NCBI RefSeq assembly: GCF_020405225.1 | Contig: NZ_CP084475.1 | Span: 1-64,000, forward strand | DNA: 64,000 nucleotides | Direction: 5' to 3' | From: Natrinema sp. DC36 | GTDB lineage: Archaea > Halobacteriota > Halobacteria > Halobacteriales > Natrialbaceae | Shown here: in pieces, positions 10,076 through 43,102 of the stretch | Numbering within the stretch: position 1 is the first letter of the stretch | Layout: each line of letters opens with the position of its first letter | Translations under genes and position numbers: made by a program | Notes under the pieces: model-generated | Databases searched by the model: none | The model's input: only the letters and a program-made list of their open reading frames with translations | Told to the model about the DNA's origin: nothing

Positions 10076-10530
10076 TGCTCGTCACCGACGATTTCGGCCC
10101 AGCCTTCGTCGTACTCCGCGAAGTAGTTGAAGTCGGCGACGACCTCAGCGAACAGCCACTCGCCGTCGACGCGTTCGTACTCGTCGTCGTAGACCCCCTG
10201 AATCCACCCAGCTGATCCGTCTGTGAACGTACAGGGGACCTCAAAGTACCAGTTCCCGGTCGCCGTCGTCCCGTCGATATCGATGATCGGGTTGTGGACC
10301 ATGTGCGCCAGGAACGGGTGCTCTTCCCCGACGATGTTCTCGGCAAAGTCCCGAACCGCGTCCCGCCCATCAAAGGTGCCGATGGAGCCGAAATCGAGGT
10401 GTGCGTCCTCAGTAAACAGAGACGCATATCCGTCCCAGTCCCGGGAGTCGATCCGGTAACAGTACTCCGCGCGCAGCTCGGTGATCGCCTCTCGGTACTC
10501 CAGTCGAGTGATTCGGTCTTCCAAGCTCAT
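10069..10530 (-). CDS. SnoaL/NTF2-like protein
   Basis: A 153-residue protein of the NTF2-like SnoaL type: N-terminal helices (ITRLEYREAITELRAEYCY), then DSRDWDGYASLFTEDAHLDFG, the family hallmark, then four strands. Relatives include small cyclases, isomerases and ring-hydroxylating dioxygenase-like subunits, so the reaction is open. The start overlaps the E1 beta stop by four bases, so it belongs to the E1 operon. Its stop codon is made from sequence of the decayed IclR copy, so the natural C-terminus may be clipped. Confidence 0.7.
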   Translation of the reverse strand: MSLEDRITRLEYREAITELRAEYCYRIDSRDWDGYASLFTEDAHLDFGSIGTFDGRDAVRDFAENIVGEEHPFLAHMVHNPIIDIDGTTATGNWYFEVPCTFTDGSAGWIQGVYDDEYERVDGEWLFAEVVADFNYFAEYDEGWAEIVGDEQS

Positions 10531-11504
10531 ATTCGGGGCATTTCTCGGATCGCGGTTTCAATGTCCGATGCGTCGGGGACGACGGCCTCGGTCAGCGGCG
10601 GCGAGAATGGGATCGGCGTGTCGTCGACGCCAATGACCTCGACCGGCGCTTCGAGGTGGTAGAACGCCTCTTCTTCGATGCGTCTTGCGATGTAGGACGC
10701 CGGCCCGTTCTGGATGACGGACTCGTCGGCGACGATGACGCGTCCGGTTTTTCTAGCGCTCTCGATCAGTGTGTCGATGTCCAAGGGTTTCAGTGTCCGC
10801 GGGTTGATGACCTCGACGCTGATGTTGCCGGCAACCGACGACGCGACGTTGAGCGCGTGGTGAAGCATCTTCTGGGTGGCGACAACTGTCACGTCCGCGC
10901 CCTCGCGTTCGACCGCGGCTTCACCGAGCGGCAGCGTGTAGGACTTTTCGGGGACCTCGCCCTCCCGGTTGTACAGCTCCATGTGCTCGAAGAAGAGAAC
11001 GGGGTCATCGCTCCGGATGGCGCTTTTGAGCAGGCCCTTGGCGTCGTACGGCGTGTTCGCGAGCACGACCCTGATGCCGGGCATGTGCATGAATAGCCCG
11101 TGGAGGCTCTTCGAATGCTGCGCGGCGGCGTTCGAACCGGGGCCACCGTTGACGGTCCGGATCGTTATTGGGACGGATACGTCACCGCCGAACATGTACT
11201 TGAACAGGCCGGCCTGGTTCATCACCTGGTCGACTGCCAGCCCCATGAAGTCAGCGTACATGATCTCCGCAATGGGACGGGACCCGGTCAGCCCGGCGCC
11301 GGCGCTGCTCCCGACGATCGCCGCCTCACTGATCGGGGTGTCGATGACCCGGTCGCCGCCGAACTCGTCGTGAAGACCTCTGGTGACGGCGAAACTGCCG
11401 CCTGGCTTCCCGACGTCTTCGCCGATGAGGTACGCCGAGTCGTCGCGGGCGAGTTCCTCAGATAGTGCGTCGTTGATTGCGTGTCGCATCGATTTCTCTG
11501 GCAT
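10527..11504 (-). CDS. 2-oxoacid dehydrogenase E1 component, beta subunit
   Basis: A 325-residue E1 beta subunit with the TPP-dependent transketolase-like fold. Family landmarks are LIGEDVGKPGGSFAVTRGL near residue 22, RPIAEIMYADFMGLAVDQ near 76 and the C-terminal domain starting VEVINPRTLKPLDIDTLI. It pairs with E1 alpha (two bases upstream) to decarboxylate a 2-oxoacid or acetoin and acylate the lipoyl arm of E2. Related to pyruvate, branched-chain 2-oxoacid and acetoin dehydrogenases; sequence alone does not separate these. Confidence 0.88.
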   Translation of the reverse strand: MPEKSMRHAINDALSEELARDDSAYLIGEDVGKPGGSFAVTRGLHDEFGGDRVIDTPISEAAIVGSSAGAGLTGSRPIAEIMYADFMGLAVDQVMNQAGLFKYMFGGDVSVPITIRTVNGGPGSNAAAQHSKSLHGLFMHMPGIRVVLANTPYDAKGLLKSAIRSDDPVLFFEHMELYNREGEVPEKSYTLPLGEAAVEREGADVTVVATQKMLHHALNVASSVAGNISVEVINPRTLKPLDIDTLIESARKTGRVIVADESVIQNGPASYIARRIEEEAFYHLEAPVEVIGVDDTPIPFSPPLTEAVVPDASDIETAIREMPRI

Positions 11505-11506
11505 CG

Positions 11507-12487
11507 TTAGATCTCCTCCGTGTAGACGCCTTCGAAGGCCGTTTCCTCATCGGGATAGTCGCTGTCTCGGGCGAATTGGACAGCCTCGTCGATTCGATCG
11601 CTTGCCGTCGAACGGATCGCCTCAACTTCGCTTTCGTCGAGGTGGCCGCCCTCGACGAGGGACGCTTCGAGGGTATCGATCGGGTCGTGCTCTCGCCACT
11701 GTTCGACTTCCTCATCGGTGCGATAGGTTGTCGGATCGCCCTCGTAGTGGCCGTGATACCGGTACGTATCACAGATGATTAGGGAGGGGCCACTGCCGTT
11801 CCGGGCGCGCTCAACAGCCTCGGCCGTTGCCTCGTACACGTCGTGGACCGACATGCCGTCGACCGTCTCGGCGGGCATGTCGTAGACCTCGCCGCGGGCC
11901 TCAAACCCATCGACGTTGTGCTGGTCCGCCGCGGGCGTCATCTCCCCGTACTGGTTGTTCTCGCAGATGAACACCACGGGGAGGTCCCGGACGCCCGCGA
12001 GGTTCATCGACTCGTGGACGACGCCTTCTGCCATCGAGCCTTCGCCGAAAAATGACAGACAGACGCGGTCCTCATCGGATTGTTCGATAGACAGCCCCGC
12101 TCCGGCCGCCAGCGAGGGGCCTGCACCGACGATCCCATTCGCGCCGAGCATCCCCTGGCTGACGTCGGCGATGTGCATGCTCCCGCTTTTCCCGCCACAG
12201 TACCCGGTCTCCTTGCCGAACAGTTCGGCCATCATTCGATCCGGTTCAAGCCCCTTGGCGATGGAGTGGCCGTGACCGCGGTGCGTACTCGTGATGTAGT
12301 CCTTGTCGCCGATCGTCCAGCAGGCGCCGGTTGCCACTGCCTCCTGCCCGAGACATAGGTGGACGAAACCGGGGAGCTCGTTGTCCTCGAACAGCGAACT
12401 CACCCGCGTCTCGAACTCCCGTATCAGTATCATCTCTCGGAGTTGGTCGGCCAACTGTTCCGTATGCTTTGCTACCTCGTCTGGCAT
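11507..12487 (-). CDS. 2-oxoacid dehydrogenase E1 component, alpha subunit
   Basis: A 326-residue E1 alpha subunit. It carries STHRGHGHSIAKG near residue 53, the GGKSGSMHI motif of the acetoin/pyruvate group, and the TPP-binding GEGSMAEG followed by ENNQY. I chose the ATG at 12487 (MPDEVAKHTEQL) because the in-frame extension upstream is not acidic and not typical. It leads the E1 alpha-E1 beta-SnoaL operon, with gaps of two bases and an overlap. A dead fragment of this gene lies at 8.0 kb on the other strand. Confidence 0.88.
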   Translation of the reverse strand: MPDEVAKHTEQLADQLREMILIREFETRVSSLFEDNELPGFVHLCLGQEAVATGACWTIGDKDYITSTHRGHGHSIAKGLEPDRMMAELFGKETGYCGGKSGSMHIADVSQGMLGANGIVGAGPSLAAGAGLSIEQSDEDRVCLSFFGEGSMAEGVVHESMNLAGVRDLPVVFICENNQYGEMTPAADQHNVDGFEARGEVYDMPAETVDGMSVHDVYEATAEAVERARNGSGPSLIICDTYRYHGHYEGDPTTYRTDEEVEQWREHDPIDTLEASLVEGGHLDESEVEAIRSTASDRIDEAVQFARDSDYPDEETAFEGVYTEEI

Positions 12488-12547
12488 GAACTGATATGAC
12501 GAAGGCGACCACAAAAAACTATGCACCGGTGTCAATCTGCTGCTATA

Positions 12548-15875: not shown

Positions 15876-17582
15876 TCAGAGCCCCACGATTTCGGGGTCC
15901 CTGAGGCCAGTTATCGTGTCCGCGTACGCCGACTCCCGGCACGCAGCGTAGAGGAGTCGCTTCGTTGTTGCCGGCGTCGAGCCGTTGGGCGAACCGACCG
16001 TGATCGACGGCTGACCGCCGTCGAGGGCCACCTCGAAGTCGGGGACCGGCCAGTCGTGGCTTGCGGCGATCTCGTCCGCGTGCGCCGCGACGTCGCGCAT
16101 GACGACCGTTGCGATGTCGCGCTCCCCCGTGGCAGGGTCGTCCGACGCTTCGTCACCGGTCCTCACCCGACTGCCCGAACGGTCCGCGACGACGAGCGAC
16201 GGTGACTCGACGCCCTCGGTGAGGGCGTCCAAAAACCGGGCGGCGTCGGCGCCGTCGACCACGCGGTGATCAAACGACAGCGAGAGTGTACAGGTGCGCC
16301 CGTCACCGTGTTCGCGGACCCGACCAACCCCTAGGATGGCGACCTGTGGCGGGTTGATTATCGGATCGAACGAATCTACGCCGAACATCCCGAGGTTCGT
16401 GATGGTGAAGGTTCCGCCCTGCAGGTCGTCCATCGTGTGTTCCCCGTCTAGGACGGTGTCGGTGAGCCGTCGCCGCTCGGTAGCGATTCCGGCTAACGAC
16501 CGCTCTTCCGCCGACCGTATCACTGGCGTCAACAGGCCCCTGTCCGTGTCCACGGCCACCGCGACGTTACGCTCGGCGACGTATCTGATCGTTTTGTCCT
16601 CGAACCAGGCGTTGAACACGGGATACGCCACGAGTGCGCGGACAGACGCCCCGACTAGTAGGTCGGTGAACCCGATACTCGCGTCCCGCTGGCCCGACAG
16701 TTCCTCGGCCGTCTCGAACGCCCGTTCGACGTCGATCTCGCGGTTGAGCGTGACGTGGGGGGCCTGCTGTGCGGAGCGGGACATCCGGTCGGCGATCGTC
16801 CGGCGCATCCCCGAGAGGGGCTCTTCATCCGTGATCGTGACGCTGGACGGGTCGGCGTTCGCGGTGGTACCGCTCGACGCTGTCGACCCCGTGGCCGCCG
16901 GCCGGTCCGCCTGCCCGGCGGCGGCACGAACGTCCGACTCGGTGACACGCCCACCGATCCCCTGTCCCTCGACATCGTCGAGAGTGACGCCGAGTTCCCG
17001 AGCCAGTCGCCGCGTACTCGGACTCGAAAAATTGCGTCCGGAAGTGACCGTCGCGACCGCATCACCGTCGACCTCCTTCTCATTGAGGACCGCCTCTACG
17101 TCGCTTCGGAGGATCGCGCCCTCGGGGCCGTTGCCGTCGATCGCTGTGAGGTCGACATCGTGTTCCCCCGCCAATTTACGCGCGCCCGGTACCGCCCGTT
17201 CGAGATCGTCACTCTCGCCCGCGGACTGGTCAGCCCCTGTCTCCTCGGGTGTCGTTGCCGAGCCGGTTGTATCGCTCCCGTCCCCGTCGTCCGTGTCGTG
17301 GTCGACGCGACTGCGGGGCGCGGGTGCGTCTTCTATGCTCTCGCCGGGGCCGAGCACGACGCCGAGGACAGTTCCCGGCGGCACCGATTCCCCGGCGTCG
17401 ACATCAACCCGTGCGAGCGTCCCGTTCTGATCGGCGTGGACGTCCGCAGACGCCTTCTCGGATTCGACCTCTGCGAGGACTCTCCCGTCCGTTACTTCGT
17501 TCCCTTCGTCGACTTGCCACTCGACGAGGAGACCGGTTTCCATCGTGTTACCCATCATCGGCATCCGGACTGCCTGTACCAT
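15876..17582 (-). CDS. E2 dihydrolipoamide acyltransferase with C-terminal extension
   Basis: A 568-residue E2 core of the 2-oxoacid dehydrogenase complex. Residues 1-80 form a lipoyl domain with the lipoylation Lys in VESEKASADV. Two peripheral-subunit-binding-like segments follow (GARKLAGEHDVDLT near 130, TRRLARELGVTLDDV near 188), then the acyltransferase domain with the catalytic SFDHRVVDGADAARF near 432-446. About 115 residues continue past the usual end (VVADRSGSRVRTGDEASDD to the stop) with no match I recognise. Two binding domains and the extension are unusual. ATG at 17582 gives the normal start MVQAVRMPMMG. Confidence 0.85.
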   Translation of the reverse strand: MVQAVRMPMMGNTMETGLLVEWQVDEGNEVTDGRVLAEVESEKASADVHADQNGTLARVDVDAGESVPPGTVLGVVLGPGESIEDAPAPRSRVDHDTDDGDGSDTTGSATTPEETGADQSAGESDDLERAVPGARKLAGEHDVDLTAIDGNGPEGAILRSDVEAVLNEKEVDGDAVATVTSGRNFSSPSTRRLARELGVTLDDVEGQGIGGRVTESDVRAAAGQADRPAATGSTASSGTTANADPSSVTITDEEPLSGMRRTIADRMSRSAQQAPHVTLNREIDVERAFETAEELSGQRDASIGFTDLLVGASVRALVAYPVFNAWFEDKTIRYVAERNVAVAVDTDRGLLTPVIRSAEERSLAGIATERRRLTDTVLDGEHTMDDLQGGTFTITNLGMFGVDSFDPIINPPQVAILGVGRVREHGDGRTCTLSLSFDHRVVDGADAARFLDALTEGVESPSLVVADRSGSRVRTGDEASDDPATGERDIATVVMRDVAAHADEIAASHDWPVPDFEVALDGGQPSITVGSPNGSTPATTKRLLYAACRESAYADTITGLRDPEIVGL

Positions 17583-17715
17583 TGCTCGTCTCACTATCCA
17601 AACCGGAGAACCAAAACAGTAGCGTCGGCGTCGACCGGTACTGAGGAAGTCATATAGTAATTTGATTGATATTTAATGGCTCTTAGACACGAATCAACCA
17701 GGAGATCGAAATATA

Positions 17716-28166: not shown

Positions 28167-29564
28167 TCAGCGGTTGAAGATGTGGACCGCTTCCCCGCGT
28201 GCGTCAGCGGACGCTTCCATGACCGCTTCCGAGAGTGTGGGGTGCGTGTGGATAGTAGAGACGACATCTTCGATCCGCGCACCGACCTCGACGGCGAGCG
28301 CGAGTTCGCCGATCAGTTCTGATGCCTCTGGCCCGACGATCTGTCCGCCGAGGATCCGTTCCGTGGCCGCGTCGGCGACGACGCGGACGAACCCGTTGCT
28401 TTCATCGAGGGTGAGCGCCCGTCCGCTGGCGTCGAGCGGAAAAGTCCCCACGAGCGGCTCGAACCCCTGGCTCTCGGTTTCCGCTTCCGTGAGCCCGACC
28501 GTACCGACTTCCGGATCGGTGAACACGGCCGCGGGCACGGCGCGATAGTCGTACGCCGCCGGTTCGCCCGCGAGTACGTCCGCGACGACTTCGCCCTGTC
28601 TCGACGCCTTATGGGCGAGCATCGGCTCGCCCACGACGTCGCCGATCGCGTGGATGTTCTCCTGACTTGTCCGCCCCTGCCGGTCGGTAGTGATGAAACC
28701 GTCCTCGGTCACCTCGACGCCGGCCGTGTCCAGAGCAAGCGTGTCTGTCACCGGCTCTCGCCCGACCGCAACTAGCACGTTGTCGGCCTCGAACTCCGAT
28801 TCATTGTCACCAGAGGTCGTCGTCACGGCGACGCCGTCGTCAGTCCGAGTACAGTTGCTGGCCGCCTCGTTCGTGCGGATGTCGATGCCGAGCGCTTCGG
28901 CCTCTTCGTGGACGATGTCGGCGATATCGGCCTCGTAGGGCGCAAGGATCCGGTCCATCATCTCAATAACCGTCACGTCGGTCCCAAGTTTCGCTAATAC
29001 TGTCGACAGTTCCATGCCGATGTAGCCGCCGCCGACGACCAGGAGACTGTCTGGGAGTTCTGGCAGCGCGAACACGTCGGCCGACGTGAGAACCGACTCC
29101 CCGTCGGGCTCGAAGCCGGGGACCTGAACCGGCCGACTCCCCGTCGCGATCATCGCCGACTCGAAGCTGATCCGATCCGGACCGTCGGCCGATCCGTCAC
29201 GGACCACAACCTCACCTGGGGACTCGAACATTGCCGTTCCCTCGACGAGCGTGACGCCGTTGGCCGTACAGAGCTGTTCGACACCGCCGGTCAGCTGATC
29301 GACGACTTCCGCCTGCCAGGAACGGAGTTGCGGAAAGTCCACCTCGACCGTTGCGTCGACGCCCATGTGCTCGGCGGTGCGGCTCCGATGGACAAGGTCC
29401 GCGACGGTTACGAACGCCTTCGATGGAATGCAGCCGCGGTTGAGACAGACGCCGCCGTAAGCGTCGCGCTCGACGAGCGTCACGTCTTTGCCGTGCTGGC
29501 CCGCCCGGATCGCGCTGACGTAGCCGCCGGGTCCGCCCCCGATCACCAATATCTCGGTTGACAT
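28167..29564 (-). CDS. lpdA: dihydrolipoamide dehydrogenase (E3)
   Basis: A 465-residue FAD flavoprotein that reoxidises the lipoyl arm of E2 with NAD. It has the FAD-binding GGGPGGYVSAIRAGQ near residue 8, redox-active CLNRGCIPSKAF near 41-52, NAD-binding VVGGGYIGMELSTVLAKLG near 176 and the C-terminal HTHPTLSEAVMEA with the catalytic His-Glu pair. I chose ATG at 29564 (MSTEILVIGGG). The long in-frame extension beyond it overlaps the divergent SDR gene and is a shadow. It completes the E1-E2-E3 set, though 11 kb from E2. Confidence 0.9.
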   Translation of the reverse strand: MSTEILVIGGGPGGYVSAIRAGQHGKDVTLVERDAYGGVCLNRGCIPSKAFVTVADLVHRSRTAEHMGVDATVEVDFPQLRSWQAEVVDQLTGGVEQLCTANGVTLVEGTAMFESPGEVVVRDGSADGPDRISFESAMIATGSRPVQVPGFEPDGESVLTSADVFALPELPDSLLVVGGGYIGMELSTVLAKLGTDVTVIEMMDRILAPYEADIADIVHEEAEALGIDIRTNEAASNCTRTDDGVAVTTTSGDNESEFEADNVLVAVGREPVTDTLALDTAGVEVTEDGFITTDRQGRTSQENIHAIGDVVGEPMLAHKASRQGEVVADVLAGEPAAYDYRAVPAAVFTDPEVGTVGLTEAETESQGFEPLVGTFPLDASGRALTLDESNGFVRVVADAATERILGGQIVGPEASELIGELALAVEVGARIEDVVSTIHTHPTLSEAVMEASADARGEAVHIFNR

Positions 29565-34159: not shown

Positions 34160-34470
34160 TCAATCCTTTTTCAGCAGTCGTTGACAACTCGGGAGTGAGT
34201 ATTCGGCACCATACGTTTCCTTAAGATATTCTTGGAGGAGCGTCAGCGTCCACACTGGTGTGTCGATCCCAACCTCTTTGGGTAGTTTGTGAACAGCTTC
34301 TTCAAACCTCTTTTGCTATAACTCTGAGGGTTTTCGGTTCTTCTAGTTCGTTTATTATCAGAAACAGCTGGCTCGTCATGACCGTAAAGTAACTCGCCAG
34401 TGTCGAGTCACTTGAGCAAGCTGTAAATCATCCGTCGCTGAACGTCGCACCACTCGGCTAACTCGTTCAT
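34160..34470 (-). pseudogene. N-terminal remnant of an IS630-type transposase
   Basis: The minus strand reads MNELAEWCDVQRRMIYSLLK, a stop, then LDTGEL. After a frameshift it continues KRFEEAVHKLPKEVGIDTPV, TLTLLQEYLKETYGAEYSLP and SCQRLLKKD before a stop. This is the winged-helix N-terminal half of haloarchaeal IS630-family transposases. The DDE catalytic domain is absent. Its first codon overlaps the stop of the lipoate-ligase gene. Confidence 0.75.
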
Positions 34471-35162
34471 TGGTCGCTCCGGTACTTTCGAACGTCTTCG
34501 GTCTTGGGGTGCCGACCGTCGAGTAACGCGTCCTCGATCACCGAAGCAACCGTCTCGAGGGCCACTATACTGCCGGCTCGGTGGATACTACCCACAGCTT
34601 GCGGATCAAATTCAACTTTCAGGTTCTCATACACGGGCTCGAGAACGCGGACGAGTTCCGCGCGGTCACAGATGACGACGATTCCCGCGGTCACCGCGAC
34701 CTCGTCCCCGATCCGCTGGGCGATTCCCGCGATCTTTCCGTCTGCCGACAGCGAGTGTGAACCTGGGCAGAATGCACCGTCCGGTTCACCACGTTCTACC
34801 GAGACCCCGATTTCGCCCAATGCACGGATTAGTTGCGACGTCGTTCGCTCATAGCGCTCCGTGATACCGCGACGCTCGTTGGCCACTGGATCCACCTGCG
34901 TGAAGGCGAGTGTCTGGCCTGTGTAGGCAACTGCACGGCCACCCACGCTACGTTCGTTCGGGGGGAACCCGTGTTCCTCCCCGGCCGAACGCGCCCTGTC
35001 GTATCCGCTCGCCTGCGTGTCGCGCGGGCCGAACACCACCTGTTTCGGCGGAAACCAGACCCGCACAATTGATTCTCCCGTAGTTCGCACCCGATGTCGT
35101 ATCGACGATTCGACCCCGAGATCGGATTCGGGCGAGGAGAGACGACCACGTATCACGCGCAT
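34467..35162 (-). CDS. lplA: lipoate--protein ligase A-type enzyme
   Basis: A 231-residue member of the biotin/lipoate ligase family. It has VRVWFPPKQVVFGPRDTQAS near residue 34, the conserved SVGGRAVAYTGQTLAF near 71 and GAFCPGSHSLSADGKIAG near 126, where the Lys would bind lipoyl-AMP. It should attach lipoate (or octanoate) to the E2 lipoyl domain. No accessory C-terminal domain is present in it, and no separate one was seen nearby. The match is to the haloarchaeal branch of the family. It lies 1.4 kb from the acyl carrier protein and lipoyl synthase genes. Confidence 0.8.
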   Translation of the reverse strand: MRVIRGRLSSPESDLGVESSIRHRVRTTGESIVRVWFPPKQVVFGPRDTQASGYDRARSAGEEHGFPPNERSVGGRAVAYTGQTLAFTQVDPVANERRGITERYERTTSQLIRALGEIGVSVERGEPDGAFCPGSHSLSADGKIAGIAQRIGDEVAVTAGIVVICDRAELVRVLEPVYENLKVEFDPQAVGSIHRAGSIVALETVASVIEDALLDGRHPKTEDVRKYRSDQ

Positions 35163-35229
35163 ACCACAGGTACTGATGCCGGGGGCTTAACGATACCTGC
35201 AATCATGGCCGGAGCTGGGAATCGCGAAA

Positions 35230-36007
35230 ATGCCAACAGATCTATTCGAGCAGTTCAGCGACATCGGCGAAGCGGAAGTGACCCTGCGATCAGCCGAGAG
35301 TGGACCGAGTAGTTCATGGATTTCCCGACAGCGACGTGATCATCGTCGATGACGGCCTCTCGGGGTTGATGGTCGCCAGAGAGTTCCCCGAGCGGGGCGT
35401 CCAGACGATGGTCGTCGAGAAGTACAACTACCTCGGCGGGAGCTTCTGGCTCGACGGCTTCCTGATGAACAAGATCACACGGTTCGGGGTCCGGCCCACC
35501 ACGGCCTCGACGTGGACTACAAGCAGTCACTGGACAGGAGGGCCTCTACGTCGCCAACGGCTCCGAGGCCTGTTCTGGCCACACCAAGGCGCCTGCGATG
35601 CCGGCGCCAAGATGCAAAACATGACAGAGTTCACCGATATCGTCATCCGTGAGGACCACCGCGTCTGCGGCATCGTCATGAACTGGACGCCCGTCGGCGC
35701 CCAGTCTCGAAGACGAGGCCAGTGGGATGGACCAGACCGGCGACAACTCCTACGGCGCCCCCGGTAACGGCCCCATGTGAGTCGGGAAGTCCGAAGACGC
35801 GACATCGAGCACACCGGCCTCGCCCGCAACGGCCTGATAGTTACCGGTATGGCCACCGCAACAACCTACGGCTTCCCATGGATGGGCCCAACAGTCGGCG
35901 CCACGCTGCTCTTCGGGAAACGGGCCGCCCAGACCGCCATCAACGAACTCGGCGTCGACATCGAGGACGTGGACATGGTGACCCAAGCGAGTCGCGCTGA
36001 CGATTGA
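35230..36007 (+). pseudogene. decayed Thi4-type thiazole synthase
   Basis: The plus strand, read through several frames, gives MPTDLFEQFSDIGEAEV, then [71 protein letters not shown] and finally [40 protein letters not shown]. This is the archaeal ribose-1,5-bisphosphate-dependent thiazole synthase family. Frameshifts near 35280, 35500 and 35700, an amber codon near 35312 and a missing middle portion disable it. It is unrelated to the island's catabolism and looks like transferred debris. Confidence 0.75.
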
Positions 36008-36533
36008 CATCATCGTCTTTTTGAAGTAGAGAGGTTGGCGATCGCGACCGGGACGACGTGAATCCCCACCGCGAGCTGCCCGTTACTGCCTCCAACTGCA
36101 AAGCTCCTACCGCCGCTGTGCAACGACGAAAGCGGTGCCGTCATCTTCGGTCTCTATTTTGTCTGAGACTAACAGACAGTACACATAGTCTCCGTGACAA
36201 GCGTCACGAAGAATGAAGGACCACTTGAGCACGACTCTCCGTGAAAGATCGAGGTCAATTCGGAGAGATCGACGACAATGACGGAATCGGCGATCAACAC
36301 CATAGTTGAGGGATGTGGATCAAGGAAACACCTGTCGCCAAAGACGTTACTGGGCCCGAACCGACAAGAGAACCGTGGTAATCATCCCACTTCGTTCTTC
36401 CGGCTACTGGTCGCTGTTTTCGGGCCGGCAGTGGTTGTACGTTCTCCGCCAGAACTGTGGAACGGCCGCGCCGCCCGCCTATTCCGGGGGTTCGTTCACA
36501 GAGAGGGAAGCTTTTGTAGAGTTAGCCAATTAC
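36008..36533. other. long leader region upstream of the ACP gene
   Basis: No gene is supported in these 526 bases. The open frames present are not acidic and match nothing I recognise. The stretch probably carries the promoter for the ACP and further debris of the thiazole synthase insertion. Confidence 0.4.
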
Positions 36534-36791
36534 ATGGCAATGACGGAACCAAACGTGAGTATCTCCAGCCGAATAGACAAATTGATTGCCGTACACTGTG
36601 ACATGGCCGCCAATTCATTCACCGACGAGACGCCGCTCGGAGAGACCGAAATCGATGCAGATTCGCTCGGCTTGGTCGAGATAGCGGAAATAATTGGGGT
36701 TGAGATGGACGTGTGTGTACCAAATGAAGCGCTCGATACATTTGAAACCGTTGGGGGCATAAGGGACTACGTGAAGGACCATGACACGTGA
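36534..36791 (+). CDS. acyl carrier protein
   Basis: An 85-residue acidic ACP-like protein. The phosphopantetheine attachment motif is DADSLGLVEIAEI (Ser near residue 43), followed by the helix 3/4 region ALDTFETVGGIRDYVKDH. Archaea normally lack the ACP-based fatty acid synthase, so an ACP is notable. Directly downstream is lipoyl synthase, whose bacterial counterparts insert sulphur into octanoyl groups made on ACP. A role as octanoyl carrier for lipoate synthesis is my inference. ATG codons at 36534 and 36540 are both possible. Confidence 0.75.
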   Translation: MAMTEPNVSISSRIDKLIAVHCDMAANSFTDETPLGETEIDADSLGLVEIAEIIGVEMDVCVPNEALDTFETVGGIRDYVKDHDT

Positions 36792-36875
36792 TATCGACGA
36801 AACAGACCCCTGCCTTGAACTGACGATCACCGTCCGGCCCACTATTTTTTATATTGTTCGCCGTACTGATCGAGC

Positions 36876-37763
36876 ATGAACTCCACTAGAAAGCCCGAGT
36901 GGTTACGGATACGACCCCCCTCGGGCGAGCGGTTCACCGAGATCAAAGAGACACTTCGCGATCACGACCTCCATACCGTGTGTGAGGAGGCCAACTGCCC
37001 GAACCTCGGGGAGTGCTGGAGCGGTCGAGATGGGCCCGGCACCGCGACGTTCATGCTGCTGGGCGACCGATGTTCGCGCGGATGTAATTTCTGCGACGTG
37101 GAGACCGGCGGGATGGACCCGCTCGATCCCGACGAGCCGACAAACGTCGCCGAGGCGGTCGCCAAAATCGGACTTGACTACGTGGTTCTCACCTCCGTCG
37201 ACCGTGACGACCTTGCCGGTCAAGGGGCGAGCCACTTCGCCGAGACAATCCGCCAGATCAAAGAACGACAGCCGGACATCCTCGTGGAAGTGCTGATCCC
37301 CGACTTTCAAGGGGAGGAGCATCTCGTACGCCAGATTATCGAGGCTGAACCGGACGTGATCGCCCACAATGTCGAGACAGTTTCCCGCCTGCAGTGGCCG
37401 GTGCGAGACCGTCGGGCCAGCTACGAACAATCGCTGTCGGTGTTAAGGCAGATTGAACAGGAATCGGACATCTACACCAAGACCAGCCTGATGCTTGGCG
37501 TCGGCGAGTACCACCACGAGGTCTATCAGACCCTGCGGGACCTCCGTTCAGTGGGTGTCGACGTGGTAACGCTGGGCCAGTACCTCCAACCCTCCCGATC
37601 GCATCTAGAGGTCGCCAAATTCGTCCATCCCCACGTCTTCGACACGTGGGAGCGGGTCGCTGAGGAGGAACTGGAGTTTTTGTATTGTGCCAGCGGCCCG
37701 ATGGTCCGCTCGTCCTATCGGGCCGGCGAACTATTCGTCAAGGCGCACCTCCGTGAGAGCTAA
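36876..37763 (+). CDS. lipA: lipoyl synthase
   Basis: A 295-residue radical-SAM enzyme that inserts two sulphurs into a protein-bound octanoyl group to make lipoyl. The auxiliary cluster motif CEEANCPNLGEC is near residues 35-46, the radical-SAM cluster CSRGCNFCDVETG near 65-77, and the C-terminal RSSY with the Ser ligand is in MVRSSYRAGE. All LipA hallmarks are intact. It follows the ACP gene by 84 bases. It serves the lipoyl domain of the E2 at 15.9-17.6 kb. Confidence 0.92.
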   Translation: MNSTRKPEWLRIRPPSGERFTEIKETLRDHDLHTVCEEANCPNLGECWSGRDGPGTATFMLLGDRCSRGCNFCDVETGGMDPLDPDEPTNVAEAVAKIGLDYVVLTSVDRDDLAGQGASHFAETIRQIKERQPDILVEVLIPDFQGEEHLVRQIIEAEPDVIAHNVETVSRLQWPVRDRRASYEQSLSVLRQIEQESDIYTKTSLMLGVGEYHHEVYQTLRDLRSVGVDVVTLGQYLQPSRSHLEVAKFVHPHVFDTWERVAEEELEFLYCASGPMVRSSYRAGELFVKAHLRES

Positions 37764-38868: not shown

Positions 38869-38876
38869 CATAGAGC
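38869..38876. repeat. 8-bp target site duplication, left copy
   Basis: CATAGAGC directly precedes the left terminal repeat of the IS6 element and is repeated exactly at 39574-39581 on the other side. Confidence 0.85.
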
Positions 38877-39573
38877 GGTCGTGTTTAGTTTGTAGCATTG
38901 TGCCAGACGGCGAAGGCTTGGAGCCACGATTCGGCTGTTGATGGTTGTGCGTGACTGAAACAGTTTGAGAATGAAGAGGTACGTCGCTTTATCTCGCGGA
39001 AGACATGTTCCGCCGCGTTCCGATTTCCATGTTTTTCGTATCGAAATCGGAGCCCAGATCGACGGAGTGCAGTCTGGAGATGTTTCGCTCCATCGACGAG
39101 AAACACGGCATCATCAAGATCATGTTTCTCACGGAGTTCGTGCAGGAACCGTTCTGTCAATGCAGTCGTAGTCGTCGAATACAGCCGTATATGGAGTATG
39201 TTGTTCGTTTCTGGATCGACAGCGGTGTACAGCCAATAGCGATGTTCGTTAAGTTGAATCACCGTCTCGTCAAGTGCGACGTGATTCGGTTCCTCGTCAA
39301 CTGTCGGCTGTATATCGCATTTGTGAACCCAATCATGGACTGCCTTGCGACTGCGCTCGACACCGATCCTCTCTAATTCTCGAACAGTATTCGAAAGCGA
39401 TAATCCAGCAAGATGGAGTCGAATGCCGAGCTCCATCAGCCGACGCGGTGTCCGTTCTCGCTCCACAAAATCCAAATCAATCCAGTCGCTACTACCGCTG
39501 AGGCGTGCGATTTCTGCCATGAACCAGCTGAAAATCAGCACGCCTCACTTTTCACGATCAACTAAACACGGCC
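38877..39573 (-). mobile_element. complete IS6-family insertion sequence (697 bp)
   Basis: Terminal inverted repeats GGTCGTGTTTAGTT (38877-38890) and, on the opposite strand, GGCCGTGTTTAGTT (39560-39573) match at 13 of 14 positions. The element is flanked by the exact 8-bp duplication CATAGAGC, as expected for IS6. It carries one intact transposase gene. A decayed relative lies at 42.4-43.1 kb. Confidence 0.9.
38885..39520 (-). CDS. IS6-family transposase (intact)
   Basis: A 211-residue DDE transposase. It has an N-terminal HTH-like region (SLSNTVRELERIGVERSRKA near residue 41), first catalytic Asp in NHVALDETVIQLN near 78, second in AVFLVDGAKHL near 142 and the catalytic Glu in EHVFREIKRRTSSF near 180. 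The start MAEIARLSG at 39520 is preferred; seven in-frame codons precede it. It ends within the left terminal repeat. With an intact frame, both terminal repeats and a target duplication, it may still be active. Confidence 0.88.
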   Translation of the reverse strand: MAEIARLSGSSDWIDLDFVERERTPRRLMELGIRLHLAGLSLSNTVRELERIGVERSRKAVHDWVHKCDIQPTVDEEPNHVALDETVIQLNEHRYWLYTAVDPETNNILHIRLYSTTTTALTERFLHELREKHDLDDAVFLVDGAKHLQTALRRSGLRFRYEKHGNRNAAEHVFREIKRRTSSFSNCFSHAQPSTAESWLQAFAVWHNATN

Positions 39574-42404: not shown

Positions 42405-43100
42405 GGTGCTGATTCGTTAAGCGTGAAAAAGTGAGGCGGTACGATTTTGTGGTGCTCTAAGCCAAAATTCTACCGCCTCAGTGGATGTAGAGACCGGATC
42501 GATTTGGGTTTTGTGGAGCGAGAGCGGACACCGCGTCAGCTGATGGAGTTCGGTATTCGGCACCATCTTGCAGATTTATCGCTTTCAAATACCGTTCGAG
42601 AATTAGAGAATTTCGGTGTCGAACGGAGTCGCAAGGCAGTCCACGATTGGGTTTATAAGTGTAATCTACAGCCGGCAGAGGATAAGAAGCCGAATCACGT
42701 CGCGCTTGACGAGACAGTGATTCAACTCGGTGAATATCGTTATTGGCTGTACACTGCTGTCGATCCGGAAACGAACAAAATTCCCCATATCCGGCTGTAT
42801 TCGACGACAACAACCACGTTGACAGAACAATTTCTGTAGGAGTTCACTGAGAAACATGATCTTGATAATGCCGTGTTTCTTGTCAATGGAACAAAACATT
42901 TCTAGACTGCACTCCTTCGATCTGGACTCCGATTTCGATACGAAAAACATGGAAATCAGACCGCTATTGAAAAATTTTCTATAAGACAAAACGATGTGTC
43001 TCCTTATTTCCAAACTGTTTCAGCCATGCAAATCCGCAACAGTAGAATTGTGGCTTCAATCCTTCGCGGTCTGACACAATGCCACAAACTAAACACGACC
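42405..43100 (+). mobile_element. decayed IS6-family element, relative of the 38.9 kb copy
   Basis: The right end keeps the terminal repeat AACTAAACACGACC (43087-43100). The left end is degenerate (GTTAAGCGTGAAAAAGTGAG near 42415 against the corresponding end of the intact copy). No target duplication is seen. The left limit is approximate. The right end lies 2 bases from the P450 stop codon. Confidence 0.65.
42447..43075 (+). pseudogene. broken IS6-family transposase
   Basis: Residues match the intact transposase at 38.9 kb: FVERERTPRQLMEFGIRHHL, VERSRKAVHDWVYKCNLQPA, NHVALDETVIQLGEYRYWLY, then TEQFL. A stop follows at 42837 where the intact copy continues. Reading on gives EKHDLDNAVFLVNGTKHF (the second catalytic Asp is now Asn), a further stop and a frameshift before the catalytic Glu region. 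Not functional. Confidence 0.8.
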
Positions 43101-43102
43101 GT

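Follow-up and report, generated by a model that had tools for sequence, protein, structure and literature searches.

A probable plasmid-borne accessory set of lipoylation genes with an orphan acyl carrier protein in Natrinema sp. DC36

Does a haloarchaeal plasmid carry its own route from octanoyl-acyl carrier protein (octanoyl-ACP) to lipoyl-E2? The question is raised by the window, the 64,000-nucleotide stretch of Natrinema sp. DC36 DNA analyzed here, which belongs to a plasmid-sized contig of 161,989 bp in a genome of 5.1 Mb. A sequence-only reading had proposed that an ACP, a lipoyl synthase (LipA) and an LplA-type enzyme form a portable pathway that travels with the 2-oxoacid dehydrogenase it serves. 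All three open reading frames (ORFs) are present as described, and extra lipoate genes do lie near a 2-oxoacid dehydrogenase on this contig, but the pathway from octanoyl-ACP to lipoyl-E2 is incomplete; taken alone, the value of the window is this correction. The plasmid genes constitute a second set, given that the chromosome carries its own LipA, LipL-like and LplA-large/LipM-like genes and also encodes GcvH. The locus probably represents an accessory lipoylation set carried by a plasmid: LipA and a LipL-like amidotransferase are both present here as second copies, in the vicinity of a catabolic 2-oxoacid dehydrogenase (E1/E2 and E3), while the ACP is an orphan which is probably unloaded. 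The gene identities given here are established by homology; the enzyme activities, the roles of GcvH as donor and E2 as acceptor, and the inactivity of the ACP are predictions.

The predicted LipA (36,876 to 37,763, plus strand) begins 84 bp downstream of the ACP ORF on the same strand, in agreement with the reported adjacency of an intact LipA to the ACP. It scores 379 bits against TIGR00510 (cut-off 310) and contains the auxiliary and radical-SAM cysteine motifs, CEEANCPNLGEC and CSRGCNFC, as well as the C-terminal RSSY, all as in canonical LipA, from which it differs only in being a second, plasmid copy that groups with other haloarchaeal LipA proteins and not with that of its host. Because its 13-member haloarchaeal clade (100/98) is separate from the host chromosomal LipA in the LipA tree, the plasmid copy appears to have been acquired. 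The gap between the ACP ORF and lipA contains a TATA-like stretch, TTTTTTATAT (36,845 to 36,854, plus strand), which may be a promoter of lipA itself, judged by the usual spacing of archaeal TATA elements. An ACP-LipA operon is thus not established.

The third gene (34,467 to 35,162, minus strand), which lies 1.4 kb before the ACP, had been called LplA-type. Its 231-amino-acid product has the LplA/LipB catalytic fold according to PF21948 (50.5 bits, cut-off 27), and this part of the assignment stands; its best NCBIfam and PDB matches are LipL-like and not those of a ligase. The top NCBIfam model is octanoyl-[GcvH]:protein N-octanoyltransferase, and no ligase model was among the NCBIfam matches. 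As the scores of 46.8 and 36.1 bits do not reach the respective equivalog cut-offs of 400 and 450, we refer to the protein as LipL-like and do not file it as LipL. Both by sequence search and by structure comparison, the best PDB matches are 2p0l and 2p5i, which we take to be LipL proteins (the depositor title of 2p0l names LplA), and the sequence search gave no match to solved structures of characterized ligases at E ≤1. The cysteine of the CPG motif, presumably the nucleophile of LipL, aligns with 2p0l and 2p5i, and the candidate nucleophile C132 and K143 are invariant across an alignment of 26 haloarchaeal homologues. In comparisons with the AlphaFold model (pLDDT 90.8), 2p0l and 2p5i ranked at the top with ligases nearly tied: LplA and the bipartite LplAB ligase (Thermoplasma Ta0514), which share the PF21948 fold, reached Z scores of 22.6 to 22.9 compared to 23.9 for 2p0l. 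We rejected the structural ranking as a means of deciding between LipL and a ligase, since ligase chains score within about 1 Z unit of LipL-type chains. The plasmid protein differs from LplA and LplAB in its conserved cysteine in the CPG motif and in the lack of a ligase match in NCBIfam. We conclude that it is predicted to be a LipL-like amidotransferase rather than a ligase, with an activity that could differ given scores so far below the equivalog cut-offs. LipB, which the sequence-only reading had not found, is indeed absent by name from all three PF21948 loci of the genome.

The closest known parallel is Bacillus subtilis LipL, which acts in a relay with LipM and GcvH. The likeness consists of the best NCBIfam and PDB sequence matches, the CPG cysteine, the lack of an accessory ligase domain and the presence of a GcvH gene in the genome, whereas the plasmid protein is archaeal, shares only 18 to 19% identity in structure alignments, falls far below the NCBIfam cut-off and has an activity that is predicted. 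In the proposed mechanism, the chromosomal LplA-large/LipM-like enzyme would octanoylate a carrier, probably GcvH, either LipA copy would insert two sulfurs, and the LipL-like enzyme would use C132 to hand the octanoyl or lipoyl group on to the E2 lipoyl domain.

The ACP-type ORF with its DSL serine, ending at 36,791, was confirmed (36,534 to 36,791, plus strand; start at 36,534 or 36,540). Its product is 30 to 42% identical to 13 ACPs from haloarchaeal type II fatty acid synthesis (FAS) cassettes, all of which share its attachment serine (S42 if the ATG at 36,540 is taken as the start), and its model (pLDDT 75.6) resembles solved ACPs in its helical fold. At 16.8 bits it remains below the Pfam cut-off of 20.8 for PF00550. 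It is the most divergent of the 14 proteins: of 18 columns that do not vary among the other 13, it breaks 5, and it deviates at 30 of 53 conserved columns, compared to 0 to 15 in other ACPs. Although homologous to the ACPs of such cassettes (ACP-KAS-AcpS-FabD-FabG; for example, on pHTUR01 and pHME505), the window ACP is far more divergent and has no adjoining KAS, AcpS or FabD; tblastn identified no remnants of these three in the window, only SDR and QOR paralogues at 29 to 40%. Haloferax mediterranei is among the haloarchaea that possess the cassette.

The sequence-only reading had asked for a phosphopantetheinyl transferase (PPTase) in the genome. A profile search with PF01648, which would miss a strongly divergent PPTase, returned no match across the genome, and the same search was positive in 23 of 24 genomes tested. 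A PPTase is present in all 22 other ACP-bearing haloarchaea examined, usually within the FAS cassette. A full-length ketoacyl synthase was likewise not found in the genome: six PF00109 matches exceed the cut-off, none of them covering more than 71 of the 252 positions in the profile, whereas a cassette KAS matches PF00109 over its full length. Since the genome lacks both a PPTase and a full-length FabF-type synthase by these searches, the ACP is probably unloaded. It is thus very unlikely that the locus encodes a portable pathway in which an octanoate-loaded ACP supplies an LplA-type enzyme that passes octanoate to E2 for LipA to convert into the lipoyl group, even though ACP, LipA and the LplA-fold gene all lie inside 3.3 kb and complete FAS cassettes occur near lipA in other replicons. 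This proposal is further weakened by the divergence of the ACP and by the LipL-like character of the supposed LplA.

An intact ORF that keeps S42 and the ACP fold counts against a dead ACP, as a dead relic need not keep them. The protein might instead act in a non-acylated (apo) form or have taken on a new role, such as binding to LipA or to the iron-sulfur assembly machinery as a partner protein, with the fold retained and the acylation partners lost. Such a role would fit rapid divergence of an intact ORF that adjoins a radical-SAM iron-sulfur enzyme, and earlier work links ACP to iron-sulfur assembly in Escherichia coli (PMC13343975). We regard it as quite improbable, because an apo role would have no need of the attachment serine and because a scan of genome contigs revealed no near relative of this ACP, and hence no conserved ACP-LipA pairing. 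An alignment scan identified relatives at nine loci; each of these has the ACP-KAS-AcpS-FabD-FabG cassette, and LipA is missing from the roughly 10 kb on either side in every case. In the absence of a second ACP-LipA pair, co-selection of the two genes is unsupported. We also considered whether the arrangement arose when 14 kb were deleted from an order like that of pHTUR01 (ACP followed by lipA on the same strand). The flanks give this no support, and in the LipA tree the window copy shows no tie to the pHTUR01 replicon; we retain it as no more than an idea.

The likely acceptor of the accessory lipoylation set is an E2 acyltransferase (15,876 to 17,594, minus strand; PF00198, PF02817 and PF00364) with one lipoyl domain and its lysine in ESEKASADV. 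It is accompanied on the same strand by E1 beta (10,527 to 11,504; Pfam Transket_pyr and Transketolase_C, and just below the cut-off of an NCBIfam PDH E1 beta subfamily model), E1 alpha (11,507 to 12,535; PF00676, with a 78% identical copy in genome G053) and the dihydrolipoyl dehydrogenase E3 (28,167 to 29,564; TIGR01350, 522.6 bits, cut-off 408.8). LipL-like genes are present in 119 of 125 genomes of the Natrialbaceae. By hand tally, all five genomes with two LipL-like loci have one of them no more than 25 kb from an E1 of this type, compared to 1 of 114 genomes with a single locus (Fisher p 3e-8). The limits of 48% E1 identity and 25 kb were set after the tables had been inspected, and the p value does not represent independent evidence from each genome, given the close relationship of G042 and G048. 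On one Natrinema plasmid, LipA is found together with a LipL-like gene and with both E1 and E3. The proposal that lipoate genes travel with the dehydrogenase is upheld to this extent. An obligate linkage was rejected, however, as LipL lies near E1 in only 6 of the 54 genomes whose E1 alpha reaches 48% identity or more (hand tally). Moreover, the nearest relative of the dehydrogenase cluster, in a sister species, lacks LipA, LipL, ACP and E3, identifying the lipoate genes as optional companions of the dehydrogenase; for the same reason, the plasmid LipA and LipL copies may not serve the plasmid E2.

The sister cluster also bears on the possibility that the stretch from 34.4 to 37.8 kb is plasmid debris left by the import of several clusters, in which LipA and LipL merely duplicate what the chromosome already encodes. 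A broken Thi4 gene between LipL and the ACP, insertion sequences on one side and a GC3 of 0.60 in the ACP, compared to about 0.8 in the dehydrogenase genes, are in keeping with debris. We nevertheless find this explanation unlikely, given that neither the LipA nor the LipL ORF is truncated or has lost a motif, and that other genomes, too, have a second LipL copy near a dehydrogenase of this kind; an accessory lipoylation set remains our preferred reading.

A 2014 survey (PMC3904984) identified no LipL in archaea, and the source of octanoyl-ACP in archaea has been called unresolved. The literature searched, which covered few subscription papers, yielded no paper on an archaeal LipL or a haloarchaeal FAS serving lipoate (passages in PMC10332631, PMC3904984, PMC7253636 and PMC3533463). 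On five haloarchaeal replicons, the ACP of a FAS cassette is positioned 5 to 14 kb from lipA, with a glycine-cleavage operon alongside in four, making the FAS cassette near lipA a candidate source of octanoyl-ACP in haloarchaea. We tentatively raise the possibility, which we hold to be short of probable, of a haloarchaeal lipoyl relay centered on GcvH (LplA-large/LipM-like, LipA and LipL-like proteins) that is unrecognized in the literature searched and in some cases fed by a bacterial-type FAS cassette with a glycine-cleavage operon and lipA; the window would then be a stripped derivative that keeps ACP, LipA and the LipL-like gene beside a catabolic 2-oxoacid dehydrogenase. The prevalence of LipL-like genes in the family and the AcpS-bearing FAS cassettes next to lipA on some replicons render such questions about lipoate directly testable in haloarchaea, for example, in Haloterrigena turkmenica.

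An acyl carrier protein (ACP), an enzyme of the LplA/LipB fold and LipA, from which a sequence-only reading had built a portable route from octanoyl-ACP to lipoyl-E2, are all encoded by real, correctly placed genes. The route itself is not supported in the genome of the window, given the absence of a match to the phosphopantetheinyl transferase (PPTase) family PF01648, only partial matches to the ketoacyl synthase (KAS) family PF00109, and a divergent ACP. The ACP gene (ending at 36791, + strand) is sub-threshold by Pfam alone and matches NCBIfam ACP models at E 1e-8, under their cut-off. Its product is 30-42% identical to 13 haloarchaeal ACPs, with the serine invariant, and solved ACPs are the top matches of its AlphaFold model (pLDDT 75.6). 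It departs from 5 of the 18 columns invariant in these other 13 ACPs and breaks 30 of 53 conserved columns, compared with 0-15 in the others. GC3 is 0.60 in the ACP gene versus 0.77-0.82 in the dehydrogenase and neighboring catabolic genes of the window.

A search for a PPTase had been proposed as a check, and the PF01648 family search found none in this genome. PF01648 does pick up haloarchaeal AcpS, at 52-56 bits, and it has matches in 14 of 125 genomes of the family. An ACP of the window's type is present in 23 genomes of the family sample (125 genomes) and the class sample (391 genomes), and a renewed search of these gave a PF01648 match in 22, the window's genome alone being without one; in G008, the 24th genome searched again, a PPTase is present but no ACP was matched. 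Of the 22 genomes, 21 have the PPTase no more than about 1.6 kb away from an ACP; in the remaining one, G268, the distance is about 5 kb. PF00109 matches in the window's own genome span only 46-71 of 252 positions, all of which are spanned by a KAS from one of the FAS cassettes, the haloarchaeal gene sets ordered ACP-KAS-AcpS-FabD-FabG. Judged by sequence, the window ACP is an orphan.

The gene labeled as an LplA-type enzyme (34467-35162, - strand; 231 aa, PF21948) is better described as LipL-like, according to its best NCBIfam and PDB sequence matches. Among NCBIfam models, octanoyl-[GcvH]:protein N-octanoyltransferase ranks first and LipL second, both far under cut-off. In a PDB sequence search only 2p0l and 2p5i were found at E 1 or below, and their cysteine aligns with that of the window FCPG motif. 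C132 and K143, the candidate catalytic residues, are invariant among 26 haloarchaeal homologues. The structural model (pLDDT 90.8) also has 2p0l and 2p5i as top matches, with a Thermoplasma ligase so nearly tied that structure does not decide between LipL and a ligase. LipL-like genes occur in 119 of the 125 family genomes; the six others comprise five assemblies at 53-77% completeness and one at 98%. In the available text of a 2014 survey (PMC3904984), archaeal proteins fall in every clade but LipL. One LipL-like gene (G088:C1:233899-234591) carries an in-frame TGA, an error or decay, and its genome has no second LipL-like match.

LipA (36876-37763, + strand) scores over its equivalog cut-off and has all three motifs. 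The chromosome encodes a LipA 77-80% identical to it, adjoining E1, E2, and E3 genes, a second LipL-like protein (48-50% identical to the plasmid one), an LplA-large/LipM-like protein, and GcvH. In a 29-row tree, the plasmid LipA belongs to a clade (100/98) of LipAs from other families and from plasmids, and the host chromosomal LipA groups with Natrialbaceae chromosomal LipAs; on this phylogeny, the plasmid LipA is no recent copy of the chromosomal one. A LipM to GcvH to LipL relay is reviewed in PMC7253636, the available text of which cautions that sequence-based assignment of these functions is perilous; we infer the enzyme roles of LipA, the LipL-like protein and the relay partners from homology. 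Most likely, plasmid LipA and the LipL-like enzyme would add capacity for E2 lipoylation through the GcvH relay, and the octanoyl group would most likely enter it from a donor other than the window ACP, which would be unloaded. The chromosomal LplA-large/LipM-like gene (locus L001, 1363-2211, - strand) has a cysteine ahead of an RKISGNAQ motif and is a candidate octanoyltransferase.

That the lipoate genes travel with the dehydrogenase (E1 beta 10527-11504, E1 alpha 11507-12535, E2 15876-17594, E3 28167-29564, all - strand) holds in part. By hand tally, two LipL-like loci are present in each of five genomes (G000, G040, G055 and the close kin G042 and G048), and every one of these has a locus at 2-23 kb from an E1 alpha of the window's type, compared with 1 of 114 one-locus genomes (G039). 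On the Natrinema gelatinilyticum plasmid (which shares its coordinates with G055:C2), LipA and E3 also accompany the LipL-like gene and E1. Against this, an E1 alpha with at least 48% identity is found in 54 genomes, with LipL nearby in only 6. The most telling evidence against joint travel is the window's catabolic cluster in G053, a genome of the same genus, on a 715-kb contig (L172-L175, G053:C2:100000-179999), with proteins 76-85% identical (E2, 61%). The 80 kb examined there contain no E3, LipA, LipL or ACP, and these four are therefore additions in the window, not integral to the cluster. The G053 cluster comprises E1, E2, ECH, ACAD, two AMP ligases, SDRs and MaoC; relative to it, the window carries inserted DNA that separates the conserved blocks.

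Contig C4, which carries the window as its bases 1-64000, is 161,989 bp long in a 5.10-Mb genome of 7 contigs scored 100% complete. Its ParA-type gene, conjugation-like pilin genes, TrbL-like genes and insertion sequences are consistent with a plasmid. The interval that separates the LipL-like gene from the ACP contains fragments of a disrupted Thi4 (thiazole synthase family) gene (35300-36007, + strand), spread over two or more reading frames. Two inverted IS6-type transposase copies (38876-39552 and 42427-43101; 75-88% alike by segment) enclose about 3 kb of low-GC DNA, and a full-length cytochrome P450 gene (43103-44461, - strand) adjoins insertion sequences.

Elsewhere, the distance between an ACP and lipA is 5-14 kb on five replicons: pHTUR01 of Haloterrigena turkmenica, a plasmid of Haloarcula sp. 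JP-L23, one replicon each of G306 and G399 (contig C13 in the latter), and a Haloterrigena KLK7 plasmid, for which the reading covered just the positions of ACP and LipA. A glycine-cleavage operon stands between or beside the two in the first four. The JP-L23 cassette may be incomplete, since its record annotates ACP, AcpS and FabD with only a short hypothetical ORF at the expected place of KAS. LipA is within 20 kb of an ACP on the same contig in just 4 of the 22 other ACP genomes; most FAS cassettes therefore lack an adjacent lipA and may act in something other than lipoate synthesis. ACP genes in a few archaea are not new, as the available text of a 2012 report (PMC3533463) describes ACP, ACP synthase and MCAT in a few unrelated archaea through transfer from bacteria. 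Our literature search, outside which most subscription papers lay, turned up no description of the FAS cassette placed with lipA and gcv. Ahead of most cassettes are quinone-oxidoreductase-like and ribonucleotide-reductase-small-chain-like genes (for example, locus L021, 6179-7045, - strand; locus L023, 10545-11396, + strand). Near its full cassette, pHTUR01 also has a fragment of a ketoacyl synthase (73 aa) and an ACP-like ORF of 77 aa (L021, 4710-5168, - strand), apparently a decayed second copy, and second ACP matches are also present in G027/G028.
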